This document shows positions 35,485 through 52,858 of a stretch of DNA of 64,000 bases, piece by piece. The notes beneath the pieces were generated by a model. That model was not told the origin of the DNA and searched no databases. It saw nothing but the letters and a program-made list of their open reading frames with translations. The stretch lies in assembly GCF_000758625.1 (NCBI RefSeq), contig NZ_CP009283.1, forward strand, positions 1,065,501 through 1,129,500. Direction: 5' to 3'. Source of the stretch: Paenibacillus sp. FSL R7-0273 (GTDB lineage: Bacteria; Bacillota; Bacilli; Paenibacillales; Paenibacillaceae). The position numbers and the translations under genes are program-made. How positions within the stretch are numbered: the first letter of the stretch is position 1; each line of letters opens with the position of its first letter.

Positions 35485-35633
35485 ATTAGGTATCCGTATT
35501 CCAAGTCAGAATGGAGCTGCAGGTGCAACCTTAAAGATTTCTTTAACTTTCACACAGGGGCTAATCCGCCATGTTAGAGTTGCTTGATAAGTAAATCAGC
35601 TACTTTATTTTCAAATGGAAAGGCCGGAATTTG

Positions 35634-37280
35634 ATGAAGCATATCCGAAGCTTAATTATTTTTATGTTTTTTTTTGTTGCAATAACTCCATCAGCAGCGG
35701 CACAAAGCTCAAACTATGCGGAAGGGCTTAACCGATTGGAATTGTTCAGTGGAACGGGGAATGGATATGAGCTTTCGCGGGTGCCCACCAGAGCAGAATC
35801 CCTTGTTATGATGCTGCGTCTGTGGGGGAAGGAAGACGAGGTCCTGAAAAGCACCTACAAAAATCCGTTTAAGGATACGGGCTGGGAAAGCCGCTACGTG
35901 TCGTATTCCTATTCAAAGGGTGTAGTTAACGGAATTGATGAATTTAGCTTTGGCGGTAACCGGCCAACCACTTTAAACCAATATTGTTTAATGGTTTTAA
36001 GGGTTTTGGGATATTCAGAAACTAAGGGCGACTTTACCTATGAAACCGCGGTTTCTTTCGCCTCTATAGTTTTAGGAATAGACTTTACACAAGAACTCGA
36101 ATTCAATCGGGGAACGCTCGCAAAAATAAGCAGTCATGCTTTAAACACAAGACCCAGAGATCAAATAGCAACACTAGGTGAAACCCTTAGTGCAACAGAA
36201 GTTTTCACAACGCAAGCTTTAAACGAGGCAAGGTCACTTTGGGAGCAGGATAAAAATGTTGCTTCATCGACAATTTTAATATATGCAGTTGGTTCTGACC
36301 TTGAATCACAGCAAGGCCAGCTAACAGATGACCTGGAAGAAATGTTCCGCGGCCAGCCAAACCAAAACACGAAAATCCTGATTCAAACAGGTGGAACGCT
36401 CAAATATCACAACAAATATATGGCTGATGGAGCATCAGAACGCTTTGAAGTCGGCAATGGACAGCTTAAAAAGCACGAGAGCCACATCCAAACAGCCGCA
36501 TCAGACCCTAAAACACTAAGGGATTTTCTTGTTTGGGGCAAAACCGTTGCACCAAGTGATCGTTATATACTGGTTTTATGGGATCATGGGTATGGTACAA
36601 TGGGCGGATTTGGTGCAGACGAGCTAAATGAACGAAAAACGATGAAGGTTTCGGAGCTTTCGAAGGCAATCGGTGCATCAGATATGTATTTTGACTTAAT
36701 CGTCTTTGATGCATGTCTTATGGGCACAGTTGAAACGGCCTATGCCCTTAGAGACCATGGCAAATATCTCATCGCTTCTGAAGATTCAACTCCTGCGGCA
36801 GGGTTGTATTATACCACATGGATAGGTGCGATGGAGCGAAACCCGCAGATTAGCACTGAAAGAGTAGGGCGTTTAATCTTAGATTCCTTTACCCTTCATT
36901 CGGGGCTTGAAGCTAAGATGCAAACCACAATGTCTATGATGAAGCTTTCTCAGGCTGAATCCCTGGTTAAGGCAATAGAACATGCAGAATTTGATTCCCC
37001 ACTAACAGATCTTGCAAACAACGCAGAGCTATTAGGCAAGAACGATGGGATATTTGATCAATATGATCTTATAGAGATAATGGGCAAATCATCAGAAATC
37101 ACTGCTGCAGCCCAAGCACTTGCATTCGAAGTAAGAAATTCAGCAGGGTATAACAATCGGGGCGGCGTAGCTTTATATGTCCCTAACAGAAAAATGTCAC
37201 ACACACATGAAATGAAAGAAGAGCTAAAAGCTATAGGTCTTAGCTCTAAGTATATTGAAACTATTCTTAACGGAAAATAG
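35634..37280 (+). CDS. SLH-bearing clostripain-like (C11) cysteine protease
   Basis: 548 residues. Signal peptide (about 1-24). Residues about 30-140 resemble one to two SLH repeats (PFKDTGWESRYVSYSYSKGVVNG), which bind secondary cell-wall polymer. From about residue 215 a caspase-like C11 domain: the catalytic His in LVLWDHGYG (about 318) and the catalytic Cys in VFDACLMG (about 361). C11 proteases cut after Arg or Lys in the family. Ends at the domain's end, with no dockerin. ATG 35634 is preceded by an in-frame TTG at 35631, and the ribosome site is weak. Codon use is A/T-rich, unlike the groE genes before it. It has its own terminator and sits just upstream of three giant surface-protein genes, whose products are plausible substrates; that link is inferred. 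Confidence 0.85.
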   Translation: MKHIRSLIIFMFFFVAITPSAAAQSSNYAEGLNRLELFSGTGNGYELSRVPTRAESLVMMLRLWGKEDEVLKSTYKNPFKDTGWESRYVSYSYSKGVVNGIDEFSFGGNRPTTLNQYCLMVLRVLGYSETKGDFTYETAVSFASIVLGIDFTQELEFNRGTLAKISSHALNTRPRDQIATLGETLSATEVFTTQALNEARSLWEQDKNVASSTILIYAVGSDLESQQGQLTDDLEEMFRGQPNQNTKILIQTGGTLKYHNKYMADGASERFEVGNGQLKKHESHIQTAASDPKTLRDFLVWGKTVAPSDRYILVLWDHGYGTMGGFGADELNERKTMKVSELSKAIGASDMYFDLIVFDACLMGTVETAYALRDHGKYLIASEDSTPAAGLYYTTWIGAMERNPQISTERVGRLILDSFTLHSGLEAKMQTTMSMMKLSQAESLVKAIEHAEFDSPLTDLANNAELLGKNDGIFDQYDLIEIMGKSSEITAAAQALAFEVRNSAGYNNRGGVALYVPNRKMSHTHEMKEELKAIGLSSKYIETILNGK

Positions 37281-37331: not shown

Positions 37332-37371
37332 GGCTTCGCATGAGTTTATTAAACTTATGCGGGCCTTTTTT
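37332..37371 (+). terminator. Terminator after the protease gene
   Basis: Stem GCATGAGTTT with AAACTTATGC plus outer pairs, followed by GGGCC and six T. It separates the protease gene from the following operon. Confidence 0.7.
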
Positions 37372-37560: not shown

Positions 37561-40500
37561 ATGAAGAAGATTTTAAGTTTGATGCTGGTATTTTCGCTTC
37601 TCGCATCAGTAGCGCCTGTTTATGCGAATACAGCAACAGAGTACACTTATGTGTTTGGTGTGAAAACAGGAGGAAACGGAAACGGCGGAACAGGTGATGA
37701 TATTTATATGGGCGTAAGTACCTATGAACCTGGAGTAAACTCTGATCATGTAGCAAATTTTGGCGGCGCTGCCGCTTGGTCTGATACACAACATACATTT
37801 AAATTACAAAATATTCCACCTTGGAGAATGAATGAGCTCGTTTTTTGGCTTGTGGGCAGTGATGACTGGTACGGTGAATCTGTGGTTCTGTGGCTTCCTC
37901 AAATTGGGGGGAACATAAATCCAACACAGACGAAGACCATTCCAATAAACGCATGGACAAAAGACCAGGGCAGACTCTATCGTGACATTTCGGACGTAAC
38001 CAAAAGAAAATTCACAGATCTTGGTTACGTTGATGAGCTTGGCGGAGAATTCTATCTGGATGCTAATTCGTCAGGCTCTGAAAGTGCAGGGTGGGACAAA
38101 TATGTCAGAGATCAATATGGTCACTATGACATTATGCAATATGAGGATGCTCCTGTTTTCAGCTATAGCGTTTCGGATGACGCTGTGGGCAGAGATTGGT
38201 TAACATTCCAGGAACCAACAAAAACACAAACGTTTCAGATGGATATTGACCGCAAGAAGCTTCACGATGAAATGGTTGCAAAGGACAAAGCAGAGATTTC
38301 GCTAACCTACAGGGTGGCGCTGCTTGCCCAGTCTACCAATGCTGAAAGCCTCGGGGGGACTTTTGCCCACACCGTTTCAGGAAATCCCGAAGTTAAAACC
38401 TATTTAACAACAAAGATAGGGCAAGCGGATTACTACTATAAGGATGTAACGTATACGTTCTATCGTAGTATATATAACCTCGGCAACCCCGATATCAATC
38501 AAACGGTTACCTATACGCCGAGCCAGGACAACCGGTATCTAAATCGGAAATTGACAGATGTTAATATCACCGTTGAAGCGGTTTCCATTCATAAAAAAAG
38601 CATGACGCAAGAAATTAAAACGGAGCTCATAACAAATTTCCAGGCAACACCTGTGTTATATCTTGGAAACAGTACGGAAACACAGCTCGCTAGCCTTACC
38701 ATGACAAAACTGCAAGGCAATGACGGACAACCAAACGGCAAACTTCAATTCACTGGAAAGGTACCGCTGGATGTCAGCGCAGTTGAAAGCGAGGGCATAA
38801 GGCTTCAGCTTAACAATGTGTCTACCTATCTATCGAAAAATGGGCGTGCTCAGGCCTACTATTTGGAAAATCCGACACCGGAATCTGCAGCATCACAAAG
38901 CTTTTATTTTTCTACTCACAAAGTGGACACACAAACGCCAACCGTCAGAGTTACCGATCAAGATGGAAATGACCTTACGGGGGGGAATTCCATTCAAAAC
39001 AACATCAAAAAGATGCATGAATTCTACATGGTATCAAGCGAAACACTCTATCCGGAGGGGAATGCCGCCCACACCAGTGAGAATCAAAACCTCTTTAAAT
39101 ATGAGCTGTACAAGAAAACCGGTGATTCCTATGAACCGGCAATAACAAGAATAAAAAACTTTGACGGTACAGGCTCCAGAACAACTGTTACCGCACCCAT
39201 TAACACGCAAGTGCTAAATGGAGTCAGTATAAAACTAAGTCCGATCGACCCGACAGAAGGCGAATTCAAGCTTCGGCTTTATGGATGGGATAAAGCTGAC
39301 AATCCACTAGGCGGAGATGCCGGATATGCAGAAATTGAAAATATCAAAATCGATAGCCTGGCTCCGCGAGTGACCATTCACGAAACGGTACATCCGCAAA
39401 ATGCACAGCTTCGTAAAAGAAATGACTATCGTTTTGAAATGAACGACCTGGAGCAAAGCAATAACGGCTGGTCAAGGACTTATTATACCTTTATAAACGG
39501 AACTGCGGCGCCAACCGACACTCCAATCGATGAAATTAAGCCTGTATCAAAAGAAATAGCTTCAACTCAAGGGGTGTGGGCATTTGTAGACTCGGAAGGT
39601 GATAGCACAACGGCTATGATATCCATTCCCAAAGGTGATAATTTTGACGGAACTCTCTATTATTTCACAGTGGACTCACTAGGAAACGATTCAAGAAACG
39701 AGCAGGCGTCAACAAGGTATTATAAAAGGCCTTTGCAGATTTTTAACGGGGATGTTGCCGACACACTGATTACAGAGGATTCCAGCCTGCCAAAGCCACG
39801 CTTTGATATCCGTTTCGACACAAGCGATGCAAACATTGAAACGAGTTATAGATGGATTTCTCATTCCAGCAATGATAATAGCTTTACACAAAACTTTAGA
39901 GTGTATGAATCGAGCCATGATGTTGGTGCAGCTGAACAACGTAGTCATAATGAAACAAATGTGGTGATGGACGGAAGATATATACTTGAATACCGTGTTA
40001 AAGATAAACTATCCGGAAACACGGCTGATTTTTCGCGAGAATACTATTTCGACCATAATGATCCGGAAATTAGCTATATTATCGAGAAGCAGCATGATTT
40101 TTTCAAATCTTCCCATCAGTTTAAAGTGAAAGTGACAGATGACAGCGGAATTGCGAGTGCATATTACTATCTATCTGAACCAGATACAGAAATTAGAATT
40201 GAAGGTACGCCAGAATATCCGCTGACACTGACACCAGACAGTGAAAACATTGCTGAGGTTAATCAAATCTTGACCCTAACAGGAATTCCTTCAGGTGCGT
40301 ACAGTATTGTTGTTGTTGCACAAGACCCGCATGGCAGAGAAAGCAAAAGGGTTTCCCCCTACTTTGGCATAAGGTCAGGACCTGTGACAATGGATACATT
40401 AAATCATACTCAGCCAAAGACTTTGAACGGAATGGGGACAACAACAGATGGTACATATAGTGTCTATGCTGTTTTGAATGAGCCCCATGTAGCATGGACT

Positions 40501-43500
40501 TCTGACAGCACAACGAAATATCAAAACCCGGTATATTATGCAACAACGGACGGCATGTCAACAGATAACGGCGTTGTAGTGCCCGAATTTACAGCGAGCA
40601 ACCATTCAGGCGGGAACTTTTCATTTACAATCGACACCCCTGTTCCGCTTCAAGAGGGCGTTAACACAATCTATTTTCAGTTCGGGCTTCTCAATGTTCC
40701 CGCTGACGTTAGACCGGAGTTTGTAACAGAGGCACAACCTGTCACCATTCTTTATGATAGCCAGGCACCAACCTTTGAATTGCCGGACTATAGCACCATT
40801 CAGCCAACAAACGCATCAGTGACAGCAACAATAGCAGCAAATGATGCCGGCACGGGAATCAGCAAGCTGACAGTTGCACCGGAGGATGCAGACAAAATCA
40901 CGGTTTCTCCATATGCAGACGGTGCATTCACCGTTACAGTTAGCGAAAATATAACAACAAACCTGCTCCTGTCTGACGAGCTTGGAAATCAGGTTTTTGT
41001 TCCTATTTCCGTGTCTAACATTGACCGGACAGCTCCATCTGCACTTGAGTCAAGTGAAATCGTGACAAAAGGAGAAAGACAGGATGGTGTGATTACAGTA
41101 GAGGTTTCAGACAATAGTGACACAACCGTCTCATTCGCACTTATTAAAGATCCGGCAGAAAACTATATTGCAACAGAAGCTGATTATATGTTATTTAATT
41201 CAAGTCAATCAGTGGAAATGCAAAGCGGTCCGGTAATCGTTAATGGCGAAGGGAACAAACAGAGAAGCTATACCATTGACTTGAAAGGGCTTAGCGGCAC
41301 CTATGCAATTGGGATCAAAGCCGTCGACACCGCAGGAAATGTGACTGAAAAAGTTTTCTTTGACTCAAAAATAAACCTGGTTGACGCGGAGGCTTCCATT
41401 GTAAGGGTCAGCGCAAACCCTACAACAACAAAAACCACAGCAACGGTTAGCGTTTATTTTAACGTTCCAGTAACCGTAATGCCTAACGCACCTGCCCAGG
41501 GTGATGTTGTGGGTGATATGGCAAGGTCGAACCTTCTCCATAAAGGACTTTTAACAACATCTGCTGACTATGTAATGGACTATGAGGTTGTTGTTCAAAA
41601 CAATAATCCAATCAGCCTCTATGTTCAGGACGAGGTCGGAAGGGATAGTGTGTTAGAATTCACACCTGAGGTTGAGTTTGTTACAGGATTTGATGTTTCA
41701 GGTTATGTAGAGAGAAATGGTCAAACCATCCAAAACGGCGGGTTTATATCTTTTAACGAGGGCGATAAGCTTTATTATGTTGTCGTTCCGGATCCAAAGT
41801 ATGCAGGACAATATTTCTTTGTTGAAAATGCAGTTTTGTCGGGATTCGTTCTGAATACAGAGCTAAGTGTTCTGGACCCTTCATTTACAGAAGCAGAAGG
41901 AAAAACAGCTTATTCAAAGCTTGTATTTGAAGCGCTCAGAAATGGAAAAACAACAAAATCAGCTTATTTCGAGGCCTATACCAATGAAGGCATCGAAGCC
42001 GACCGGATGGAAGAGGAATATGTTGCCATTACAGTGGTCGATGAAACGGCACCTGTTGCAGAGGTTAAATATTCAATTACCGAGTTAACCAATAAAAGTG
42101 TTAGTGCAACACTTTCTGTGTATGACCCGGAAAGCGGGATTTCAAAGCTTGAGCGTTCATATGACGGCATAGATTTTAGCCAAATTGACTTCATGCTTCC
42201 GCACACCGAAACATTCGAACAAAATGCAACGGTATATTTCAAAGTGACAAACAAAGCAGGAATAGAAACGACCCTGCCGGTCACCGTTTCAAACATTGAT
42301 AAAACGCCAATCACGCAAGACATACACTACACGGTTGAATACACCTATGAGAACTATCTTGGAAACTGGGTTCCAATCAAAGAAGGAAAAGCCTATAGAA
42401 GGGTTATGGCTACGCTCAAGTTTATAGGAGGCGGAAAAACGCTTTCTATGACAAACAACAACGCAGCCTTTTCAAGGACTTTAACTCAAGATGTAAACAC
42501 ATTCACATTTGAGTTTAAGGATAATGCAGGAAATACAGCTGCTCATAAGGTTAGCTATGACCATTTTGACAACACCATTGGTCAAACCTCCTATGTGTTA
42601 TCCAATACGTCCAAGACAAACAAAAATATCTTTGCAACGATCACTTTATCGGATGATTCAGGTGAAATCGCATTTGCGGAGGTTAAAAAGGGCGATGTGG
42701 TTTATCCGTTCAAAGGTGAGCCGCTTGAAAATGAATATATCGTTGAGCTTGACAGCTCAGGAATTTATTATGTGACAGCCTATGACTATGCCGGAAACCG
42801 CTGGAGTACTCCGATCACCGTTTCAAACATTAACAAAGTAGTGCCAATAGCAATTGAGAAGACTTACAGCACGCCTCCAGCCACAATTACTGCACAAAGC
42901 GTGAATGTTGAGCTGACACAGTTTAGCAAAGAGTTCAAAACTATTTCAGTCACTGGTGTAGAACCTGTCGGGAGCCTGACTGCCAACGATATCGTACATA
43001 TCCCTGGCACAAAAGCTGTTCGCTTTAGAAAAAATGGTACTGTTACGATGTTCTTTGTTGACGACTATGGCAACGAAGGACATGAGCTTATTACCATATC
43101 CAATATTGTTTCTACGCCGCCGCAAGTAAAAGCGACTGCAACATTAGCAGAAGATAAGCTGAGCGTTAATGTAACCTTTGACCAAATCCGTGACAGTGAC
43201 GGCGTTCCGGTGGATATTCTTAGAAAGATGACAGATCTTACCGTTTCTTATCGTGGATATGAACATGCCCTTTTAACTGAGGTGAAGGATGAAAACGGCG
43301 ATGTGGAGTCCTACAAAGATGCCGTTATCAACGTTAACACTAACGGGGAGCACGTCTTTCAAGTCAGGGACCAAACAGGTATAACGCAAAAAATTCTTTT
43401 AACGGTGGAAGGAATTGAAGTTGGAGCACCCAAGGTTAAAGAGGTCCGCTTCACATATAAATATCTCGAACAAAACCAAAGTGGTGCATGGGTGGAAAAG

Positions 43501-44382
43501 GACTATCAAAACAAGATTGTTGTTGGTGTTGACACATCTGGAAAAGAAGAAGGATATGTTGTGGGAATCGACAAAAATCCGGCAACGAACCAGAATGTGA
43601 ATGTCACGGTAATCACTGACAAAGATGCTAAGTTTGTGGGCGGAAACGACCCTTGGGAACAAGAGAAGTCGTTGAACTATAGAGAAAATGGGCTTTACAA
43701 TTTTAACCTTGAAGGAAGAACAGGGGCCTACACCTCATATGGTGTCGACATTGGTCTAATCGACAAAACTTCCCCTGAGCTAAAACTTGAAAATGGCGAT
43801 GAGCTAATCTTCATCGAAGGAATGACGCCTAAAAAAGATGCCTCCATTGCATATGACAAGTCAAAGCTTCTGGATTTCAAAGCATGGGATATGGTTGCAG
43901 GTCAAAAAGTCGACCTGACAAGCCGGGTCACCATAAATTATGGAGCAGGCGGACGGGTGTTTAACCCTGACAATCTCTCAGCAAATGAATTTGTTCGTTC
44001 GAACCCTTACTATATCGACTATACAGTAAGAGATGATGCAGGGAATCAAACAACCATTCGCCGAACCGTTCGCCTTGTGGGTCTTTATGACACTTTAGCC
44101 CTTGTTAACGGAGTTATGCCGGACAGCTCAAATGTTGCAACCGTTATTGGAAGCAAGGTTGAAATTTCACTGAAAAACTTTTCCGGAATCTCGTATGCCC
44201 GTTATGAAAAGGGTATTTTAACACAAGGCCAGATGAAAACAAAAGGAACTGTCCTTCAGGAGAAAAACGGAGTTTACACCATCGATAATGTTTCGGCGGG
44301 CTGGTACACCGTATATATCCAAACGGATAAACGCGACTATTTCAACATTCATGTATATGTTTCAAATCAAGGAGGGAAGTAG
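37561..44382 (+). CDS. Giant secreted Ig-repeat surface protein
   Basis: 2273 residues. Signal peptide MKKILSLMLVFSLLASVAPVYAN, an N-terminal domain of about 400 residues rich in Trp and Tyr, then a long array of beta-sandwich domains of about 80-100 residues. Their joints share short sequences such as VSNIDRTAP, VSNIDKTP, VSNINKVVP and ISNIVSTPP, and inner strands carry DNAGN-type motifs (DTAGN, DNAGN, DYAGN and DDAGN) typical of bacterial Ig-like repeats. No enzyme, dockerin, SLH or LPXTG element was seen, so its means of attachment is unknown. AGGAGG precedes ATG 37561. Its stop is 3 nt before the next start. Composition is A/T-rich relative to the flanking host genes. Likely an extended scaffold or adhesin. 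Confidence 0.85.
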   Translation: MKKILSLMLVFSLLASVAPVYANTATEYTYVFGVKTGGNGNGGTGDDIYMGVSTYEPGVNSDHVANFGGAAAWSDTQHTFKLQNIPPWRMNELVFWLVGSDDWYGESVVLWLPQIGGNINPTQTKTIPINAWTKDQGRLYRDISDVTKRKFTDLGYVDELGGEFYLDANSSGSESAGWDKYVRDQYGHYDIMQYEDAPVFSYSVSDDAVGRDWLTFQEPTKTQTFQMDIDRKKLHDEMVAKDKAEISLTYRVALLAQSTNAESLGGTFAHTVSGNPEVKTYLTTKIGQADYYYKDVTYTFYRSIYNLGNPDINQTVTYTPSQDNRYLNRKLTDVNITVEAVSIHKKSMTQEIKTELITNFQATPVLYLGNSTETQLASLTMTKLQGNDGQPNGKLQFTGKVPLDVSAVESEGIRLQLNNVSTYLSKNGRAQAYYLENPTPESAASQSFYFSTHKVDTQTPTVRVTDQDGNDLTGGNSIQNNIKKMHEFYMVSSETLYPEGNAAHTSENQNLFKYELYKKTGDSYEPAITRIKNFDGTGSRTTVTAPINTQVLNGVSIKLSPIDPTEGEFKLRLYGWDKADNPLGGDAGYAEIENIKIDSLAPRVTIHETVHPQNAQLRKRNDYRFEMNDLEQSNNGWSRTYYTFINGTAAPTDTPIDEIKPVSKEIASTQGVWAFVDSEGDSTTAMISIPKGDNFDGTLYYFTVDSLGNDSRNEQASTRYYKRPLQIFNGDVADTLITEDSSLPKPRFDIRFDTSDANIETSYRWISHSSNDNSFTQNFRVYESSHDVGAAEQRSHNETNVVMDGRYILEYRVKDKLSGNTADFSREYYFDHNDPEISYIIEKQHDFFKSSHQFKVKVTDDSGIASAYYYLSEPDTEIRIEGTPEYPLTLTPDSENIAEVNQILTLTGIPSGAYSIVVVAQDPHGRESKRVSPYFGIRSGPVTMDTLNHTQPKTLNGMGTTTDGTYSVYAVLNEPHVAWTSDSTTKYQNPVYYATTDGMSTDNGVVVPEFTASNHSGGNFSFTIDTPVPLQEGVNTIYFQFGLLNVPADVRPEFVTEAQPVTILYDSQAPTFELPDYSTIQPTNASVTATIAANDAGTGISKLTVAPEDADKITVSPYADGAFTVTVSENITTNLLLSDELGNQVFVPISVSNIDRTAPSALESSEIVTKGERQDGVITVEVSDNSDTTVSFALIKDPAENYIATEADYMLFNSSQSVEMQSGPVIVNGEGNKQRSYTIDLKGLSGTYAIGIKAVDTAGNVTEKVFFDSKINLVDAEASIVRVSANPTTTKTTATVSVYFNVPVTVMPNAPAQGDVVGDMARSNLLHKGLLTTSADYVMDYEVVVQNNNPISLYVQDEVGRDSVLEFTPEVEFVTGFDVSGYVERNGQTIQNGGFISFNEGDKLYYVVVPDPKYAGQYFFVENAVLSGFVLNTELSVLDPSFTEAEGKTAYSKLVFEALRNGKTTKSAYFEAYTNEGIEADRMEEEYVAITVVDETAPVAEVKYSITELTNKSVSATLSVYDPESGISKLERSYDGIDFSQIDFMLPHTETFEQNATVYFKVTNKAGIETTLPVTVSNIDKTPITQDIHYTVEYTYENYLGNWVPIKEGKAYRRVMATLKFIGGGKTLSMTNNNAAFSRTLTQDVNTFTFEFKDNAGNTAAHKVSYDHFDNTIGQTSYVLSNTSKTNKNIFATITLSDDSGEIAFAEVKKGDVVYPFKGEPLENEYIVELDSSGIYYVTAYDYAGNRWSTPITVSNINKVVPIAIEKTYSTPPATITAQSVNVELTQFSKEFKTISVTGVEPVGSLTANDIVHIPGTKAVRFRKNGTVTMFFVDDYGNEGHELITISNIVSTPPQVKATATLAEDKLSVNVTFDQIRDSDGVPVDILRKMTDLTVSYRGYEHALLTEVKDENGDVESYKDAVINVNTNGEHVFQVRDQTGITQKILLTVEGIEVGAPKVKEVRFTYKYLEQNQSGAWVEKDYQNKIVVGVDTSGKEEGYVVGIDKNPATNQNVNVTVITDKDAKFVGGNDPWEQEKSLNYRENGLYNFNLEGRTGAYTSYGVDIGLIDKTSPELKLENGDELIFIEGMTPKKDASIAYDKSKLLDFKAWDMVAGQKVDLTSRVTINYGAGGRVFNPDNLSANEFVRSNPYYIDYTVRDDAGNQTTIRRTVRLVGLYDTLALVNGVMPDSSNVATVIGSKVEISLKNFSGISYARYEKGILTQGQMKTKGTVLQEKNGVYTIDNVSAGWYTVYIQTDKRDYFNIHVYVSNQGGK

Positions 44383-44385
44383 GCA

Positions 44386-47300
44386 ATGACGGTCCATAAA
44401 ACAATGAAACGCAGCATAGCTGCAACTCTCTTTCTAGCTATGCTTTTCACTTTTGCCAGTTTCCCTGCTCGTGCAGAAGCCAGTAGTGCGGATTATTCGA
44501 TTGCAAATGAATTTATGAAATATTCGATTAATTCAAAAACAGGCGGTTTTTCAATCGAAACCGTTGACGGCCATCCACAAAAAGCTTATGACAACAACCT
44601 TCCGCTTCTTTATAAGGAAGATGCGGCAAGGAGCAATGGAACCTCGTTCACAACCGTTCGTATCGACGGAAAAGATTTTGTTTTCGGTCAGGAATATGGC
44701 TGGTTTGGAATCGATACAAAGCTTCATGAACCTGTCGTTTCAGAGCAAAACAGGCTTTTAACCATTGCATGGGACATTAAGGGCTACACCATCACACAAA
44801 AGGTGTCCATTTCAATTGATCCTAACAACTCGAGGACTGGAAACATTGGTATTTCATATGATGTGAAAAATAACAATGCTACAGCCGGAACGGTTGGTAT
44901 TCGGCTTCTTCTGGACAACGCGCTTGGTTCAGAAATTGATTCACCTTATGTTTTGGTTGACCCGACGCAGCCGACAATCGTTGAAACCGAATATAGCGGT
45001 GACAATCTTCCGCAGCAAATCAGATATGTTGATTCTCTTTCAGCTTCGAACAAGATGGCTTATGCCCTCTTGTCAGGCTGGAGCGGCAACAAAGACGTAA
45101 ACGTGGATAAAGTGATTGTAGGCCACTGGGTTAATCTTGCAAACACAAGATACGATTATACACCAAACCCTAATGTTGACTTTACTAATTATTCAAACAA
45201 ATATTTAGTTCCTGACACTGCAACTGCTTATTATTGGAACGAAAAATCAATTGAGCCGGGTCAAGTCAGAATTTCTGAAATGCTCTATGGGATCGGCAAC
45301 TTTTCTGAACAAACACAAAAGGAGCATGTTTCAATAGGTATCCAAACTGACAACATATTACTGGCTAACGACAAAAAAGCATATGAAAACGATGGTGTGT
45401 TTAAAGCGAATGTCACCATTGACAACAGTGTCTCGGGAGCAAAAGAACTCTTAGAGCCTATTGTTAGGCTTAGCCTCGATGAGGGACTTGTTTTTGCAGC
45501 AACGAAAACACGGGAATACACGGTGAAAATTTCGGGCGGTCTTAACATTGGATCGGTGTTTGATATTCCGGATGTTGAAATTATTGCAGAGACTCAGGCT
45601 ATGATCACATCAAAACGTTTGGTCGTTTCATTAAACGCGACAGAAATAATTGATGCTAACACTAATAAATTGGTTGACTATAGTGCAAACACAAACATAT
45701 TGATTCCTGCAGTTGACGGAAAGCTTCCGGAAGTTTCAATGAAGCATGTTTTCCCGTCGTCCGTTTATTATGAAGGCGACAAAAATATCACCGTTTCTGG
45801 CAATATGAAGGTTTTGACTGAGGCTCTTTCGGGAAGTGATGGCTGGAGTCTTTACCTTGTTTCATCATCAGGCGGTGAGGCTATTTTGATTGACAAAAGA
45901 AAAATAAGTTTTATTGAAGAAGGTCAGACGCTTGCGTTTTCAACTAATCAGACCTTGGATGTTGGAAAATATGACATTGAATTCAGATTTACAAATCAAC
46001 AGCTAATCGATGCCTTCGGTACAAAAATTAAAGCGGCAGCTACAGTGGACGTCACCAATAATTTAGCGGATAAAAGTGCAAGTTACGGTATTGTTTCGCT
46101 AGTTCGATTTACAGACGCTGCAAATAACAGACAGCTGTATGACTATATTAGTTTCGCAAACGAAGATGCAATGAAAAAATTTGTATCTGGCGGCGTGAAA
46201 AAGGATGGAATTCTTAACAAAGGCATAGCATTTGAAAAAGATAAAACAGAGATTCTTTTGACCCTTCGCGGAAAAATCAGGCTTATGGATACGGGTACGG
46301 AAAAATATTACTCTGCCAGCAGAGCCGATGGCGACATTACCATTAACAACATCCTGACCTATGACAGCAACGAAGCCCTTAAGATGACAGTTGACAGCAA
46401 GGGTGCAAAGCTGGAAGGCGATGGTACCATCAAAGTGATCAACTCCATTAATATTTGGCATAATAAGTGGCATTTTGAAGCCAAAAATGGAACCAAATAT
46501 ACTCTGAACCGGGAGGCAGTTTCCGAGAAAGATGCTCAAGCACTTGAACTTCAGCTTGGAGATGCCGGTTATATGCTGCAGAATATTGCAGGTTTTTTGA
46601 TCAATATTAAATATGGCGTTATGACCCAGGATGAAGATGATTACGGCATAAGCTTTGGCGGAAAAATTTCATTGCCTTTAAAAGCTGCTGATCAATCGAA
46701 GGGTGAGGAGCACTATGATTATAAAGGCTCACTAACGGCTAACGTCCAAGATGTACTCTATGGAAGTAAAGACAGCGAAATTGGTTTTGTTGGCATAAAC
46801 ACAACACTATCTGTAGCCCTGCCAAAAGATATATTAGGCCCGCTAGTAGGAAACGAAGCCGGTGTTAAGGCGGATATAACCATTAACACCATTGATGATA
46901 TTTACAGCATTGATGCAGGTGTTTCTGTAACCATGCTGGAAGTAGAAGGGTCATTGGCACTAAAAAAGGTCCCTATTAACGCTGTTCCAAAAATGATGCT
47001 AGACAAACTTACCTTCTTTTTAGCGCCATCCACAATGAAGGTTCCTGTGGTTGCACCTTATGTGTTTATCACAGGGCTTGGCGGAGGGATTTCAAACCTT
47101 GCAGATACCATTGCCGGAGAACCGGCAGGTGAACTTCCACCGCTTACAATTCATCTTCAAACGAGGCTTTTAATTAATGCGATTATTGTAGGTGACTTTA
47201 AGCTGGATGCCAAACTATCCGGTCTTGCAATTGAAGGTACCGGCCGGCTGGAAAAAGACGAAGAGGGAAGACTTCTTAATCTTCAAGCGGGAATGAATGT

Positions 47301-50076
47301 GCAATGGATATCGCCGTTTCAGCTAAATGCCTTTGGCAGCATCAGCATTCATGCCGGAGCCATTCGTGGCGGTATAACGATAAAAATTACGGAAGATTAT
47401 TTTTATGGTTATGTTTACGCAGGACTGTTCATTCCAGACTCGATCCCATTGCTCGGGGGCAAGGAGGTTGCAGGAGTAGAGGCAGCTGTTTCCTCTGACT
47501 TTGTTGGTGCAAACTTTAAAGTCATTGGAATTAAGCTTGGCTTTATTTATTACTGGAACGGTGACCTGAGCTTTGGCGGATCAATCGACCTCTCTTCAAG
47601 AGGAAACGCGGTTCACTATGTCAACTCGGAAGCGCTGGACGAAAACGGCAAGCTTGTGCCGACCACAATGATATATGGAACGAATATGAGAAGACTGAGT
47701 ACCGGGGCAATAGCTAAAACAAGGGCCGGGGATGGGGTTACAAAAGAGGTTACCCCAACATCAAAGGATGCGCTTCTCTTTGAAGTTCCGCTTCGCGGTT
47801 TAGTCAAACCGTCTGCATCAGAAATCATTGTCACCAATCCAAACGGCAAAAAATTGACAATGGTTGAAGACGATAACAAGGGCAACGGAAACTTTCTTGT
47901 TCAATCTTTAGATGGCACTAATTATTTGTACGTTTCAGTCACTGACCCTTCTCTTATTGTTGCCGGTAACTGGTCCATTTCAGTTACAACACCTGATGTT
48001 TATATAGACAGCTTTGCAGTAAACAGTGTGGACTATTTGCCGGAGCTTACAGGAATCAGTGCTTCTCATAGCGCAAATTCAAGCCGTGATATTAACGTTT
48101 CCTGGACAACTGATAAGCAAGGCAAATATTCGGGTGCACTTAATGTCTATGTCACTACAGACCCATCAGTCATGCAAACAATCGAATCCTCTAACATTCA
48201 AGACACTTCAGCATTAATTAGTATCGGCAACCTGGAGTTAGACGGAATTGAATCAGGTTCTCATGTGTTCACACTTCCGGAGTCCTTTCCTGAAGGGAAA
48301 TATCATGTTGTTGCAATGCTTGTTAACCATCAAGGCGGAATGAGTAAGAAAATCACGTCTTCAACATTCACTTTCACCAATCCATTGCTCCCTCAAAACC
48401 CGAAATCTGTTTCTGCGGTCTACAGTGGTGACGGCTATGTGAAGGTTGAACTAGCGGGAAGCGACGAAACGGCAACACACTATCTCGTGGCGATCGAAGA
48501 CGAAGATGGTATTGAGGTCGAGAATTCCTTTGGTCAATTTAAAGCTGGCAGTAGCATCATTCTAAAACCACTAGAAAGCCAGACCAACCGGCCTCTATTG
48601 GAGGCAGGCAAGACTTACTTTGTTAAAGTACAGGCAGCTAGAATTGTGGAGTCTGCTCTTAAACAGGCCGAATATTACCGATCAGCCGGATTTGCATCAT
48701 CGCCAAGCTTTGTTATGCCTTCAATGGATAAACCTCAGCTGTTAAGCGTTGAAACCAATATTGACAGATCAAAAGACCGCTATTATTTAAACACTGACCG
48801 ATTAGAGGCAAAGTACACCTTCGACAGACCTGTTAAAATGACCTTAAACCTAAATACTGAAGATAAAAACACGCCTCAAGAGTTTAAGACGGAGTGGTCA
48901 TTTGAAGAAAGTCTTGAAGACGGCCAGCAGTTAATTGACTTTATAGCAGTTGGTGAAAACCGTGACACCATCCAAGGCAGCAGGTCATCGGGTGCCATTG
49001 GATTTAATGTTGACACAAAAGCACCTGTGTTACTCCTTGACGAAGATGTTCAAACAAGTCTTGACGGGGAAAACGCTGAAAACACCGTCAGTAATCAAGT
49101 TGTTTTTGTTGGCGCGGGCTCAAGCTATAGCTTCCATGGTCTAACAGAACCAACCGCAGCATTAACATTAGACGGTAGTTCAGACGGAATTGTTGTAAAT
49201 CCGGACGGAACATTCGTTGTCAATCGTAAGGCCTCAAGTGAGGACCCGGACCAAACCCTGATTCTTAAAGCGGTTGATGCTGCCGGAAACGAAACAGCTG
49301 TTCAAGTATATCTTGTGAATCGTGCTTTGTCAGAGTTTGACAGCATTAACCTAATCTCTGACCTTGAAAGCTCGGATGATCAGCCTGATTCGATTGAGCT
49401 TGGTATAGGCGGGACAACTGTGCTTTCTGTTAAAGCGCTTCGTACAGTTGGCGACACCGTTCTAAAGGCAGACGACGTTGTGTGGGACGTTCTTTATAAT
49501 CAGAACATCATTAGACTTTCACAAGACGGGACTATTGAAGCATTAGCTCCAGGCGAAACTGCAATCAAGGTTAGTTATAGACTTTCTGCTTTTGAAGGAC
49601 AGAATGGGAAAACGGTCTATAAAGAACTGTCAGACGTTATCAGAATTAGTGTAAAAGATTATGGTTATCGTTATGAAGTTCGTCAGACACAAGGGTTCTC
49701 GTTGTACACCATATACACTGAAATAAACATGGGCAAGGCAACGGTTGTAATTGGAGGCAACAAACATACTCTTTTGTATGACAAGCTTAAAAAAGCATAT
49801 ATTGGGGCTTCAAAGGAACTTGTCACAGGCGAGCAATTAACAGCCAAGCTTGGCTTTGAACCCACAGTGAAATCTCCTGTTCTCCTTCGTGGAGACACCG
49901 ATGGTAGTGGTGCTATTGATAAAATCGACGTTTTGGCAACGTTGAATGCTATTTTAGACAATGTCTACAACGGTTTTAGTTCATCAGAAGATTGGATGAG
50001 AGCTGATAAAAACGGTGACGGCATAGTTGACATTGTAGATGCGCAGCTCACACTAATGGAGGCACTTGAGAGATGA
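44386..50076 (+). CDS. Giant secreted protein with C-terminal dockerin
   Basis: 1896 residues. Signal peptide (about 1-33). The N-terminal 300 residues look like a beta-rich carbohydrate-associated fold (DYSIANEFMKYSINSKTGGF...), a long beta-rich middle follows, then Ig/fibronectin-like domains (about 1220-1600), a Big_2-like domain (about 1665-1780), and a type I dockerin in the last 64 residues. Its two calcium loops are DTDGSGAIDKID and DKNGDGIVDIVD, each followed by a helix (LATLNAILD and AQLTLMEALE). Dockerins bind cohesins. The gene overlaps the cohesin-like/SLH gene by 4 nt (ATGA) and AAGGAGGG lies 9 nt before its ATG. No catalytic domain was recognised. Confidence 0.85.
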   Translation: MTVHKTMKRSIAATLFLAMLFTFASFPARAEASSADYSIANEFMKYSINSKTGGFSIETVDGHPQKAYDNNLPLLYKEDAARSNGTSFTTVRIDGKDFVFGQEYGWFGIDTKLHEPVVSEQNRLLTIAWDIKGYTITQKVSISIDPNNSRTGNIGISYDVKNNNATAGTVGIRLLLDNALGSEIDSPYVLVDPTQPTIVETEYSGDNLPQQIRYVDSLSASNKMAYALLSGWSGNKDVNVDKVIVGHWVNLANTRYDYTPNPNVDFTNYSNKYLVPDTATAYYWNEKSIEPGQVRISEMLYGIGNFSEQTQKEHVSIGIQTDNILLANDKKAYENDGVFKANVTIDNSVSGAKELLEPIVRLSLDEGLVFAATKTREYTVKISGGLNIGSVFDIPDVEIIAETQAMITSKRLVVSLNATEIIDANTNKLVDYSANTNILIPAVDGKLPEVSMKHVFPSSVYYEGDKNITVSGNMKVLTEALSGSDGWSLYLVSSSGGEAILIDKRKISFIEEGQTLAFSTNQTLDVGKYDIEFRFTNQQLIDAFGTKIKAAATVDVTNNLADKSASYGIVSLVRFTDAANNRQLYDYISFANEDAMKKFVSGGVKKDGILNKGIAFEKDKTEILLTLRGKIRLMDTGTEKYYSASRADGDITINNILTYDSNEALKMTVDSKGAKLEGDGTIKVINSINIWHNKWHFEAKNGTKYTLNREAVSEKDAQALELQLGDAGYMLQNIAGFLINIKYGVMTQDEDDYGISFGGKISLPLKAADQSKGEEHYDYKGSLTANVQDVLYGSKDSEIGFVGINTTLSVALPKDILGPLVGNEAGVKADITINTIDDIYSIDAGVSVTMLEVEGSLALKKVPINAVPKMMLDKLTFFLAPSTMKVPVVAPYVFITGLGGGISNLADTIAGEPAGELPPLTIHLQTRLLINAIIVGDFKLDAKLSGLAIEGTGRLEKDEEGRLLNLQAGMNVQWISPFQLNAFGSISIHAGAIRGGITIKITEDYFYGYVYAGLFIPDSIPLLGGKEVAGVEAAVSSDFVGANFKVIGIKLGFIYYWNGDLSFGGSIDLSSRGNAVHYVNSEALDENGKLVPTTMIYGTNMRRLSTGAIAKTRAGDGVTKEVTPTSKDALLFEVPLRGLVKPSASEIIVTNPNGKKLTMVEDDNKGNGNFLVQSLDGTNYLYVSVTDPSLIVAGNWSISVTTPDVYIDSFAVNSVDYLPELTGISASHSANSSRDINVSWTTDKQGKYSGALNVYVTTDPSVMQTIESSNIQDTSALISIGNLELDGIESGSHVFTLPESFPEGKYHVVAMLVNHQGGMSKKITSSTFTFTNPLLPQNPKSVSAVYSGDGYVKVELAGSDETATHYLVAIEDEDGIEVENSFGQFKAGSSIILKPLESQTNRPLLEAGKTYFVKVQAARIVESALKQAEYYRSAGFASSPSFVMPSMDKPQLLSVETNIDRSKDRYYLNTDRLEAKYTFDRPVKMTLNLNTEDKNTPQEFKTEWSFEESLEDGQQLIDFIAVGENRDTIQGSRSSGAIGFNVDTKAPVLLLDEDVQTSLDGENAENTVSNQVVFVGAGSSYSFHGLTEPTAALTLDGSSDGIVVNPDGTFVVNRKASSEDPDQTLILKAVDAAGNETAVQVYLVNRALSEFDSINLISDLESSDDQPDSIELGIGGTTVLSVKALRTVGDTVLKADDVVWDVLYNQNIIRLSQDGTIEALAPGETAIKVSYRLSAFEGQNGKTVYKELSDVIRISVKDYGYRYEVRQTQGFSLYTIYTEINMGKATVVIGGNKHTLLYDKLKKAYIGASKELVTGEQLTAKLGFEPTVKSPVLLRGDTDGSGAIDKIDVLATLNAILDNVYNGFSSSEDWMRADKNGDGIVDIVDAQLTLMEALER

Positions 50077-51686
50077 TAAAATACTTGAAAAGCATTTTGT
50101 GTATCATGCTTCTAGGAGCTGTTTTACCATCATATGCCTACAGCGCAAACGATGCTGCAGACCTTAGTTATCGTGTAGTCACTACAGTAACTGACAGCTC
50201 CGGTGCCTTAAAATCATCATTTGAGGTTGGAGAAGAAATTTTTGTTAAACTGAGTCTTTCCTATACTGGTGCCGGAAGGGCACCGGTATATGGCTTTCAA
50301 GGAAAGCTGCAGTTTGATTCTTATGTTCTGCAAAATACCAGTGTTAAAATGGAAAAGGACATTTCAATGAAATATTCCGAGGGTGCCGTCAACTATGTCT
50401 ATCTTGATATGACCGGTAACGGAAAAGAGGATTCAATACTCCGGAATATTGGTACTGCTGTATTTCAAGCTAAAAACAGCGGAACGTTCAGCTTTTCTTC
50501 AGGCAGCTTCATTCTGACAAATAAAGATGCGACACACCGGTACATTGAACCGTTTGAGGATGTGCAGATCACTGTTGGCTCTGGAATAAAGGACACCTCA
50601 AAATCTTTATTATATGAAAACATTGTAGCTGCAAAAGCCTTACTTGCTTCAGTTACTATTGCAGATAATCCCAAAACTATATATGATCCGGATTATTGGT
50701 ATCCAACAAAATCCGCTCAAAAATTGAGAGAGGTTATTGCCGAGGCTGAGGCTGTTTTTGATAACAAGGATGCTCTGGCGTCGGAAATCTCAGAAGCAAT
50801 CGAAAAGCTTAGCGTTGGCGTTTCCGATTTCGAGAGCTCAAAAATTGTCGGTCCGAAACGTTGGGCTGCGCCGGTTGGCAACACCACAGACGGTAACACC
50901 GCAGTTGATCTTTACTATTCCGTTAGTGCTTCTGTAAAAGGCGGAAACGGAAAAATTGCCGGCGGCTTTGAAGTTCAGACCATTCGGGCAACAACCTCTG
51001 CAACCATCAGAATGATTCCAGATGAGGGGTTTGAAACTGAATATATCATTGTCAACGGTGAAAGATTTATAGGCCATGACATTTACACCATTCCCGAGGT
51101 TAGCCGAGATACCGTTGTGGTGGTTACATTTGCTAAAAAACCGCCTTTTACAGATATAGCACATGATGATTGGTACTATTTTTCAGTAAGGCATGTTTAC
51201 AACAAGGGACTATTTACGGGAACTTCTGACACGGAATTCTCACCGTCAGGGAAAATGAGCCGTTCCATGCTGGCCACTGTAATCTATCGTATGGAAAATA
51301 AGCCGAATGTTACATTTGCAAATGTATTCTCTGATGTTCAAAGTGGCTATTGGTATTCAGATCCGATTATTTGGGCACATCAAAGTAAAATTGTTAACGG
51401 GTATGATAAGGATAGATTTGCTCCCAATGATGCAATCACCCGTGAGCAAATTGCTGTTATGCTCTATAGATACGCTAAGAGTAAAGGTGTTGACCTTCAA
51501 ACCGGTCATTCAAGCCTGAGCTTCAAGGATGCTGATGAAATTTCAGACTTTGCCAAAGAGTCCATCACTTGGGCTGTATCCAAGGACATTATGAAGGGTA
51601 ACGATGATTTGACTCTAAATCCTTCTGGTCTTGCAACCAGAGCAGAGGTGGCCACGATGCTCCAAAGATTTAATGAGTTGGAATAG
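50073..51686 (+). CDS. Cohesin-like, FIVAR and SLH cell-surface anchor
   Basis: 537 residues. Signal peptide (about 1-25). Residues about 28-170 show the cohesin pattern: VGEEIFVKLSLSY, GFQGKLQFDSYVLQ, a central YLDMTGN strand and IGTAVFQAKNSGTFSFSSGSF. Then a FIVAR-type helical bundle (about 180-250), a small beta repeat (about 270-355), and three SLH repeats (about 359-402, 419-462 and 483-530) with WYYFSV, GYWYSD and SFKDADEI entries. This is the layout of an anchoring scaffoldin: SLH holds the cell wall and the cohesin holds a dockerin protein. It is translationally coupled to the dockerin gene. The cohesin call is by eye, and another beta-sandwich such as a CBM-like domain is possible. 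Confidence 0.75.
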   Translation: MIKYLKSILCIMLLGAVLPSYAYSANDAADLSYRVVTTVTDSSGALKSSFEVGEEIFVKLSLSYTGAGRAPVYGFQGKLQFDSYVLQNTSVKMEKDISMKYSEGAVNYVYLDMTGNGKEDSILRNIGTAVFQAKNSGTFSFSSGSFILTNKDATHRYIEPFEDVQITVGSGIKDTSKSLLYENIVAAKALLASVTIADNPKTIYDPDYWYPTKSAQKLREVIAEAEAVFDNKDALASEISEAIEKLSVGVSDFESSKIVGPKRWAAPVGNTTDGNTAVDLYYSVSASVKGGNGKIAGGFEVQTIRATTSATIRMIPDEGFETEYIIVNGERFIGHDIYTIPEVSRDTVVVVTFAKKPPFTDIAHDDWYYFSVRHVYNKGLFTGTSDTEFSPSGKMSRSMLATVIYRMENKPNVTFANVFSDVQSGYWYSDPIIWAHQSKIVNGYDKDRFAPNDAITREQIAVMLYRYAKSKGVDLQTGHSSLSFKDADEISDFAKESITWAVSKDIMKGNDDLTLNPSGLATRAEVATMLQRFNELE

Positions 51687-51928: not shown

Positions 51929-52099
51929 AAAGTCTTCTGCAGTCTACTAGACATGCGGAGGGCTTTTTTTTTTCATACTGGAATACCCAAACGAATCTAG
52001 CAACAAAAGAATAGAGTATAGCAGTTGATCTTCTGCAGTGCTTTTGCTTTTGCAGGTGCTGCGGAGATGGACAGGTTCCCAACAAACGGGGTGATATGG

Positions 52100-52366
52100 A
52101 TGGATTTGAATGCATTGACTGGCCTGTTTGCTGAGAATAGCGGCTCAGTCGTGCTAAATGTCCTTTTATCGGTTGCTTTAATCTGGGCGATCAGGCAGAT
52201 CGCGGGCAAAGAGAAGGTCATTCAGAATTACCAGAAACGTGATGAGGAGAACGAGAAGCAGCTGAGTGAGTACAATCGTTCCCTGGTCAAGCTATTGATT
52301 GAAAGAGAGGCCCTGGTACGAGAGAGCGCCGATAAAACCAAAGGTGAGGAGGTCGTCAACAAGTGA
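52100..52366 (+). CDS. Small holin-like membrane protein
   Basis: 88 residues. An N-terminal membrane helix (SVVLNVLLSVALIWAI) is followed by a charged helical tail (KEKVIQNYQKRDEENEKQLSEY). This resembles BhlA/UviB and XhlA-type proteins of phages and bacteriocin clusters by layout only. The start at ATG 52100 has GGGGTGA 7 nt upstream; in-frame ATG codons at 52025 and 52067 lack good sites. Overlaps the next gene by 4 nt. Confidence 0.6.
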   Translation: MDLNALTGLFAENSGSVVLNVLLSVALIWAIRQIAGKEKVIQNYQKRDEENEKQLSEYNRSLVKLLIEREALVRESADKTKGEEVVNK

Positions 52367-52539
52367 AGCTCCTCGATATTTTCAAAAAAAATGAAGTCAA
52401 GCCCAGCAGTGTGAGACGGGAGATAGAGAACCTCGGCAGAATCCGGGAAGCCTATGAATTGAATGATATCGAAAGCCTGTTAGACCTGCACCGTACCGGC
52501 CTGGGTAAGAGAGGAGATGATTTGCATGGCCATCGTTGA
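52363..52539 (+). CDS. Small protein of unknown function
   Basis: 58 residues starting at GTG 52363, which overlaps the stop of the preceding gene (GTGA); GAGGAGG lies about 10 nt upstream. Mostly charged helix (SSVRREIENLGRIREAYEL). It overlaps the start of the next membrane protein. The coupling on both sides is the main evidence that it is real. Confidence 0.5.
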   Translation: MKLLDIFKKNEVKPSSVRREIENLGRIREAYELNDIESLLDLHRTGLGKRGDDLHGHR

Positions 52540-52858
52540 TTTGATTCTAATTACGCTCGAGGTTGCTGTTTTTATCGTGTTTGCTGCTTATGTGCTGCGG
52601 TACCGTACGTTTTTTATCGGAAAAGGGCCGAACCGGACGTATAACCTGTATCTCCGGAGTGTATGGATGACTTATTTCATGGTCTCGCTGCTGTGCATTA
52701 ACCTGCTGTGGGGCCGGCTGAACATTGTTTTTGGTTATAATGTAGACAGCGTATCCAATACGATCAGGGAGTTAGTGATGATTCTGACGCTGATCCTGCT
52801 CCTGTTCGCGGGGCTGACGCACAAGGATCTGTGGGATATCAACGAGCAGGATAAATAG
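52526..52858 (+). CDS. Three-helix membrane protein of unknown function
   Basis: 110 residues with three hydrophobic segments (LILITLEVAVFIVFAAYVL, TYFMVSLLCINLLW and LVMILTLILLLFAGL). The start at ATG 52526 has GAGGAG 9 nt upstream; ATG 52517 is too close. Third of three coupled small genes. A phage-derived lysis or membrane cassette is one reading, but no other phage gene is nearby. Confidence 0.6.
   Translation: MAIVDLILITLEVAVFIVFAAYVLRYRTFFIGKGPNRTYNLYLRSVWMTYFMVSLLCINLLWGRLNIVFGYNVDSVSNTIRELVMILTLILLLFAGLTHKDLWDINEQDK

Follow-up and report, generated by a model that had tools for sequence, protein, structure and literature searches.

The window analysed here, a 64,000-nucleotide stretch of the genome of Paenibacillus sp. 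FSL R7-0273 (G000:C1:1065501-1129500; the genome is a single contig of 7,288,921 bases), encodes a cassette that may divide cell-surface display between two proteins. Its second open reading frame (ORF), ORF2, encodes a giant secreted protein which appears, from its sequence, to be an SLH-tailed protein with a dockerin in place of its anchor; the following gene, ORF3, would supply the SLH domains in trans. In the favored reading, to which we give a probability of about two in three, the SLH tail of ORF2 gave way, once, to a type I dockerin preceded by a pre-dockerin module; the anchor would now reside on ORF3 together with a divergent cohesin. The initial annotation of this DNA had described ORF2 and ORF3 as a minimal pair. 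ORF1, which ends 3 nucleotides before ORF2, also belongs to the unit, which is therefore a cassette of three genes, or of four if the C11 (clostripain-family) peptidase gene upstream of ORF1 is counted.

Within a widespread family of SLH-tailed proteins, the ORF2 cassette represents the branch with dockerin tails. ORF2 has matches in 67 of 295 genomes of the family Paenibacillaceae, including the 15 that carry the full-length protein, and its body is homologous to SLH-tailed giants (E 5e-113 over residues 3-1735), a result at odds with the stand-alone system proposed by the initial annotation. All nine relatives checked at the C-terminus possess SLH domains there (90.6 to 146.9 bits), whereas ORF2 gave no SLH match in the Pfam scan and carries a dockerin at its C-terminus instead. 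The alignment ends at ORF2 residue 1735 for L083, 1734 for L093, 1731 for L094 and 1738 for L095, and at 1648 or 1419-1438 for the other five relatives. In a tree of the N-terminal domain of ORF2, all proteins with a dockerin tail, 17 in number, fall on a single branch (support 100/100), and the SLH-tailed set lies on the opposite side. Distant relatives of ORF1 precede the SLH-tailed proteins in six of the nine loci. In several loci another large protein is encoded behind the SLH-tailed one (L082, 17926-19902; L094, 16203-19904; L093, 16930-19902), so the SLH version may likewise be a three-gene unit. Twelve of the 15 carriers encode a second, longer match to ORF2, the SLH tail having been examined for the copy of the own genome alone (L082, 2761 residues). 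The N-terminal domain of ORF2 matches the glycosyl hydrolase 38 C-terminal domain in nine of the 16 members aligned, with a best E of 0.0014, the window copy being without a match, and a profile of this N-terminal domain found no match in the PDB. This weak resemblance to a beta-sandwich of carbohydrate-active enzymes leads to the guess that the head might be a glycan-binding beta-sandwich.

The dockerin itself is recognized by standard profiles. The C-terminal region of ORF2 matches Dockerin_1 (PF00404) with 25.0 bits (E 2.2e-5), above the curated Pfam cut-off of 22.9 bits, and with 30.8 bits in the genome search. Its best match in the PDB is a type I dockerin, 5nrm_B (E 0.00085). In dockerin calcium loops the ligands at positions 1, 3, 5, 9 and 12 are acidic or amide residues. 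Both of the loops that had been noticed at the end of the protein are present and agree with this pattern: the ligands of loop 2 are D, N, D, D and D in all 17 loci compared (the window, L042-L051, L084-L088 and L028), and those of loop 1 are D, D/N, D/N/S, D/N and D. A comparison of the 17 orthologs shows 17 invariant positions among the 22 of dockerin repeat 2 and nine among the 22 of repeat 1. At positions 10 and 11, four and six residue types occur in repeat 1, compared to one and two in repeat 2. Because repeat 2 is so much better conserved than repeat 1, one binding face is predicted, and the pattern suggests that the dockerin would bind via repeat 2. Dual-mode binding depends on the internal symmetry of dockerins, according to one report, where the non-cellulosomal dockerins that bring single enzymes directly to the surface of Clostridium thermocellum have a single binding mode and some dockerins linking the cellulosome to the surface have a dual one (PMC5429695). 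A single mode in ORF2 would be compatible with a direct wall anchor, without proving it.

The genes of the two proposed partners are closely joined. As the initial annotation had observed, the stop codon of ORF2 and the start codon of ORF3 overlap by 4 nucleotides, in the sequence ATGA, which is kept in all 17 loci, as is the GGAGG inside ORF2, 10 nucleotides before the ORF3 start. The position of the ORF3 start within the ORF2 stop, together with this internal GGAGG, implies translational coupling. ORF2 itself is 1896 residues long from the first start codon in 17 of 17 loci, and its alignment contains no gap column; conservation to this degree exceeds what chance would give. The genome survey for the same gene pair, recommended by the initial annotation, found the elements together: full-length ORF2, its 161-residue end containing the dockerin module (residues 1736-1896; no other genomes) and the ORF3 N-terminal domain each occur in 15 of the 295 family genomes, the same 15 each time. 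One additional weak match to the ORF3 domain, in G216 (E 2.5e-4), was dropped; the matching protein is LamG-like and glycosidase-like by eye and does not resemble ORF3 beyond that stretch. In the genus, 11 of 100 genomes, the own one included, have a match to ORF3 residues 25-355, and close relatives of ORF3 occur in five named Paenibacillus genomes at 79-92% identity. A class-wide draw gave matches in four of 398 genomes (145 genera), all four in the same family.

A mobile cassette was considered and not adopted. A groEL gene, recognized by eye, precedes the cassette in the window, in nine of the ten other genus loci and in G123. The neighbors downstream of the cassette differ between loci. 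A plasmid collection contains 53 records with a match to ORF3, which in no case covers more than 80% of its length, and the eight matches listed all lie from residue 269 onward, in the SLH half of the protein.

ORF3 has the features of an SLH anchor protein. The three SLH repeats assigned to it earlier are recovered with 106.4 bits in the window copy, and SLH is matched in 17 of 17 orthologs (E <= 1). Among solved structures, they match the SLH domains of Sap, an S-layer protein (E 2.7e-10). ORF3 has 49 matches in its own genome, and the 48 others all fall within residues 233-536. A csaB gene is also present in the genome (269.9 bits against a cut-off of 213.1). In two reports on Paenibacillus alvei, SLH trimers bind a secondary wall polymer (PMC6081394) and this polymer is pyruvylated (PMC10435577). 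The FIVAR bundle noted next to these domains is a fair description. FIVAR is matched in 10 of 17 orthologs (E <= 1; best E 0.0023), but the window copy reaches 13.0 bits (E 0.16) and stays below the cut-off of 29.2 bits.

The N-terminal domain of ORF3 likely carries a divergent cohesin. SLH and FIVAR aside, Cohesin (PF00963) is the only Pfam family found in more than two of the 17 orthologs, with matches in 13 of them at E <= 1 (best E 0.00025). A profile of 30 cohesins from the genus ranked four ORF3 copies at 1, 2, 3 and 6 among 750 targets, half of them reversed, and the first three copies scored 12.1, 10.1 and 8.3 bits, with the best decoy at 7.3 bits. The initial annotation had called the domain cohesin-like, and this wording is fair; the outcome that it had given as a refutation, a match to another beta-sandwich family and none to Cohesin, was not observed.

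Several observations weigh against the cohesin-dockerin reading. The window copy of ORF3 matches Cohesin with 18.3 bits (E 0.0027), short of the cut-off of 24.1 bits, and four of the 17 orthologs have no match at E <= 1. In single scans L088, L085 and L086 scored 15.7, 14.5 and 15.3 bits, all below the same cut-off, and the ORF3 proteins of L084 and L043 showed no Cohesin match. The fourth copy in the profile search (L084, 4.2 bits) fell below two reversed decoys at ranks 4 and 5, hhalign of the ORF3 domain against the 30 cohesins gave a probability of 39% (P 3e-4, 101 columns), and a sequence search of the PDB with the N-terminal domain returned no match. AlphaFold predictions based on the window copy and five close relatives offered no structural support on either side, with a predicted local distance difference test score (pLDDT) of 34.8 for ORF3 residues 25-186 and 35.0 for ORF2 residues 1733-1896. 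The shared distribution of the two genes is expected from their adjacency and common descent and therefore does not count as separate evidence that the proteins touch. As the tree of the ORF2 N-terminal domain is unrooted, with a root placed just to draw it, parsimony is the basis for the direction of change from SLH to dockerin. Finally, two Cohesin matches elsewhere in the genome exceed the cut-off (29.9 and 29.1 bits), and either of them could be the partner.

These observations leave room for an alternative in which the N-terminal domain of ORF3 is a different beta-sandwich, the tail of ORF2 is a calcium-stabilized cap or docks elsewhere, and ORF3 anchors the complex or decorates the wall without any cohesin-dockerin contact. 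Cohesin being below the cut-off in every copy whose score was seen would agree with it, as would the low confidence of the model of the ORF3 domain, which gives no usable fold, and the dockerin matches in 47 of the 100 genus genomes, given which a dockerin alone need not mean an ORF3 partner. We nevertheless regard it as unlikely, since Cohesin is the sole family other than SLH and FIVAR to occur in more than two of the 17 orthologs, the only dockerin match of the genome adjoins ORF3 in nine of 11 genus carriers, and repeat 2 of the dockerin is nearly fixed, would-be contact positions included.

A further question is which cohesin the dockerin would bind. In the own genome dockerin is matched once and Cohesin twice, each time as a single domain (E <= 0.001); these counts also led to the rejection of a cellulosome, in the sense of a multi-cohesin scaffoldin with several dockerin-bearing glycosidases. 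One of the two cohesins (G000:C1:258888-259202, L002; 29.1 bits) lies on a protein of 1897 residues that also matches SLH, and the other (G000:C1:6967049-6967456, L001) on a protein of 226 residues. A real dockerin that docks on such a cohesin, for instance that of the 1897-residue protein, with ORF3 co-encoded for another purpose, would draw on a match that is over the cut-off and accompanied by SLH on the same chain. This appears quite improbable to us: in the carrier G080, where ORF2 and ORF3 are both kept, nothing matches Pfam Cohesin at E <= 0.001, which makes ORF3 the only candidate seen there, and genome-by-genome tracking of ORF2 is known for the ORF3 N-terminal domain and not for the other cohesin. 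The third alternative, that ORF2 is just secreted or held by ORF1 and ORF3 is an ordinary wall protein of the same operon, would make use of the many SLH matches in the genome, among which a nearby SLH gene is not rare, but seems very unlikely to us given that wall attachment is the habit of the family (SLH on the same chain in 9/9 relatives) and that the gene overlap is kept at every locus.

ORF2 carries the only dockerin match in nine of the 11 genus carriers, with two matches in G066 and G086, and we infer that its dockerin binds the N-terminal domain of ORF3. The private lock-and-key system of the initial annotation is partly supported, by this one-to-one relation, by the shared set of 15 genomes, by the SLH-anchor architecture of ORF3 and by the SLH tail that the relatives have and ORF2 is without. 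In G066 and G086 a second dockerin-ending protein is encoded away from the cassette, as at L165 (G066:C1:6133000-6142900), where the open frame has 1858 residues. Elsewhere there are clusters of large genes, side by side, that encode proteins with a cohesin and, directly after it, a dockerin at their end (L166 and L167, G035:C51:72000-111800; L168, G078:C1:2140000-2159900), and, judged by coordinates, similar clusters exist in G005, G015, G016, G038, G042, G057, G058, G068 and G081. They include proteins of about 200-260 residues, barely more than one cohesin and one dockerin, and such tandem tails could form chains.

The features of the cassette are collected in Table 1. ORF1, ORF2 and ORF3 are co-directional, and all three products appear by eye to have signal peptides. 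ORF1 gave no SLH, dockerin or cohesin match in the Pfam scan. The C11 gene product matches Peptidase_C11 (125.8 bits) and SLH (23.8 bits), and DHG and DAC motifs were seen in it and in 13 of 13 extracted relatives. The gene precedes ORF1 in the window and, judged by ORF size and C-terminal sequence, in all 15 of the other loci whose sequence extends to this point, the L028 locus being too short; in L045 and L047-L051 the gap between the two genes is 14 nucleotides. The earlier statement that the system has no recognizable enzyme thus applies to ORF2 and ORF3 but not to the cassette with its protease gene. No C11-type protease gene was seen by eye alongside the SLH-tailed relatives L082, L083 and L093-L095. 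Two small ORFs after ORF3 (52025-52366 and 52517-52858) have no Pfam match. Both have relatives behind the cassette in L042, and the second also in L048 and L051; the sequence retrieved for the remaining loci of the genus contains none.

Table 1. Features of the cassette, with positions counted from the first letter of the window.
Feature	Position	Strand	Remarks
C11 (clostripain-family) peptidase gene	35631..37280	+	549 residues from TTG (ATG at 35634); one SLH stretch; probable cassette member
Terminator-like hairpin between C11 gene and ORF1	37335..37363	+	consensus scan only
ORF1	37561..44382	+	2273 residues; secreted (by eye); Ig-like stretches below cut-off
ORF2	44386..50076	+	1896 residues; giant secreted protein with C-terminal dockerin
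Body common to SLH-tailed relatives, ORF2 residues 3-1735	44392..49590	+	BLASTP E 5e-113 to L083 protein
Pre-dockerin module, ORF2 residues 1736-1835	49591..49890	+	not seen in SLH-tailed relatives; homology stops at 1731-1738 in 4/9
Dockerin, ORF2 residues 1836-1888	49891..50049	+	PF00404, 25.0 bits
Calcium loop 1, ORF2 residues 1837-1848	49894..49929	+	
Calcium loop 2, ORF2 residues 1874-1885	50005..50040	+	
GGAGG within ORF2, likely ribosome-binding site of ORF3	50058..50062	+	10 nucleotides before ORF3 start; kept in 17/17 loci
ATGA, ORF2 stop/ORF3 start overlap	50073..50076	+	4 nucleotides; kept in 17/17 loci
ORF3	50073..51686	+	537 residues; SLH anchor protein
Cohesin-like stretch, ORF3 residues 49-151	50217..50525	+	PF00963, 18.3 bits, E 0.0027; below cut-off
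FIVAR-like stretch, ORF3 residues 210-246	50700..50810	+	PF07554, 13.0 bits, E 0.16; below cut-off
Three SLH domains, ORF3 residues 358-532	51144..51668	+	Pfam 106.4 bits, E 6.8e-31

From these elements a sequence of events can be proposed. The SLH domains of ORF3, produced in coupling with ORF2, should bind a pyruvylated wall polymer, as judged from the family and the presence of csaB. The ORF2 dockerin would then dock on the N-terminal domain of ORF3 in a calcium-dependent manner, through its second repeat and in one orientation, and this docking would hold ORF2, perhaps together with ORF1, on the wall in a one-to-one fashion. More speculatively, the C11 protease may mature or release the complex. 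The functional interpretation goes further and is tentative, with odds that we put below even: the anchor would have been swapped, once, to a private, single-orientation and calcium-dependent plug and socket, so that a head of ORF1 and ORF2 could be assembled, exchanged or shed at the wall, possibly under the control of C11, in a one-client system with no link to polysaccharide-degrading enzymes.

Contacts of cohesin and dockerin in secreted Clostridium perfringens proteins were reportedly described by Adams in 2008. The FIVAR region of ORF3 matches 2jnk/2ozn, which we take to be dockerin structures, at a non-significant E of 0.22. The cassette resembles the C. perfringens case in having FIVAR near a cohesin-dockerin module and differs in that FIVAR is on the cohesin-like side and no glycosidase is involved. 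Another point of comparison is the SLH-tailed giants of Paenibacillaceae, for which no family name was found. They are homologous to ORF2 and often have an ORF1-like gene ahead, as described above, but unlike ORF2 they bear SLH on the same chain, and no ORF3-like gene was seen among the adjoining ORFs of L082, L083 and L093-L095 (by eye, not by profile scan).

The cassette would be a non-cellulosomal variant of the SdbA/OlpA type of SLH anchor, which carries a single cohesin. SdbA of C. thermocellum and ScaF of Acetivibrio cellulolyticus consist of one type II cohesin followed by SLH, and OlpA and ScaJ have one type I cohesin; ORF3 similarly joins one cohesin-like domain to an SLH trimer on a small protein, and its client is likewise dockerin-ended (PMC3413522). 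The clients of the SdbA type are scaffoldins or enzymes from among many dockerin proteins, in contrast to the one dockerin match of this genome. Moreover, the client ORF2 is a giant without a recognized enzyme domain whose gene is coupled to that of the anchor, and the cohesin-like domain of ORF3 is below the cut-off. An SLH-anchoring scaffoldin is defined as at least one cohesin plus SLH (PMC11557425). ORF3 has the SLH part and would be such a scaffoldin if its N-terminal domain, with its sub-threshold match, is accepted as a cohesin. An Archaeoglobus fulgidus pair is likewise a cohesin-dockerin system outside the cellulosome; there surface display was engineered in Escherichia coli (PMC9705933), whereas the display on an SLH anchor proposed here would be natural. 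A literature search on dockerin, cohesin and SLH in Paenibacillus and on non-cellulosomal systems, with subscription literature mostly outside its coverage, yielded no description of the ORF2/ORF3 pair in the texts available. New features are the lone client, in which no enzyme domain is recognized, the coupling of its gene to that of the anchor, and the apparent replacement of an anchor on the same chain by a dockerin.

Cohesin-dockerin pairs are familiar chiefly from cellulosomes, which they hold together and in which many clients share many sockets, and the cassette is a candidate for a system with one client. It comes with a built-in control, as relatives, some of them in the same genome, have the anchor on the same chain. 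Comparing both forms in one cell would show what is gained from a detachable anchor. If binding is proven, the pair might also find use in surface display as an orthogonal coupling module.

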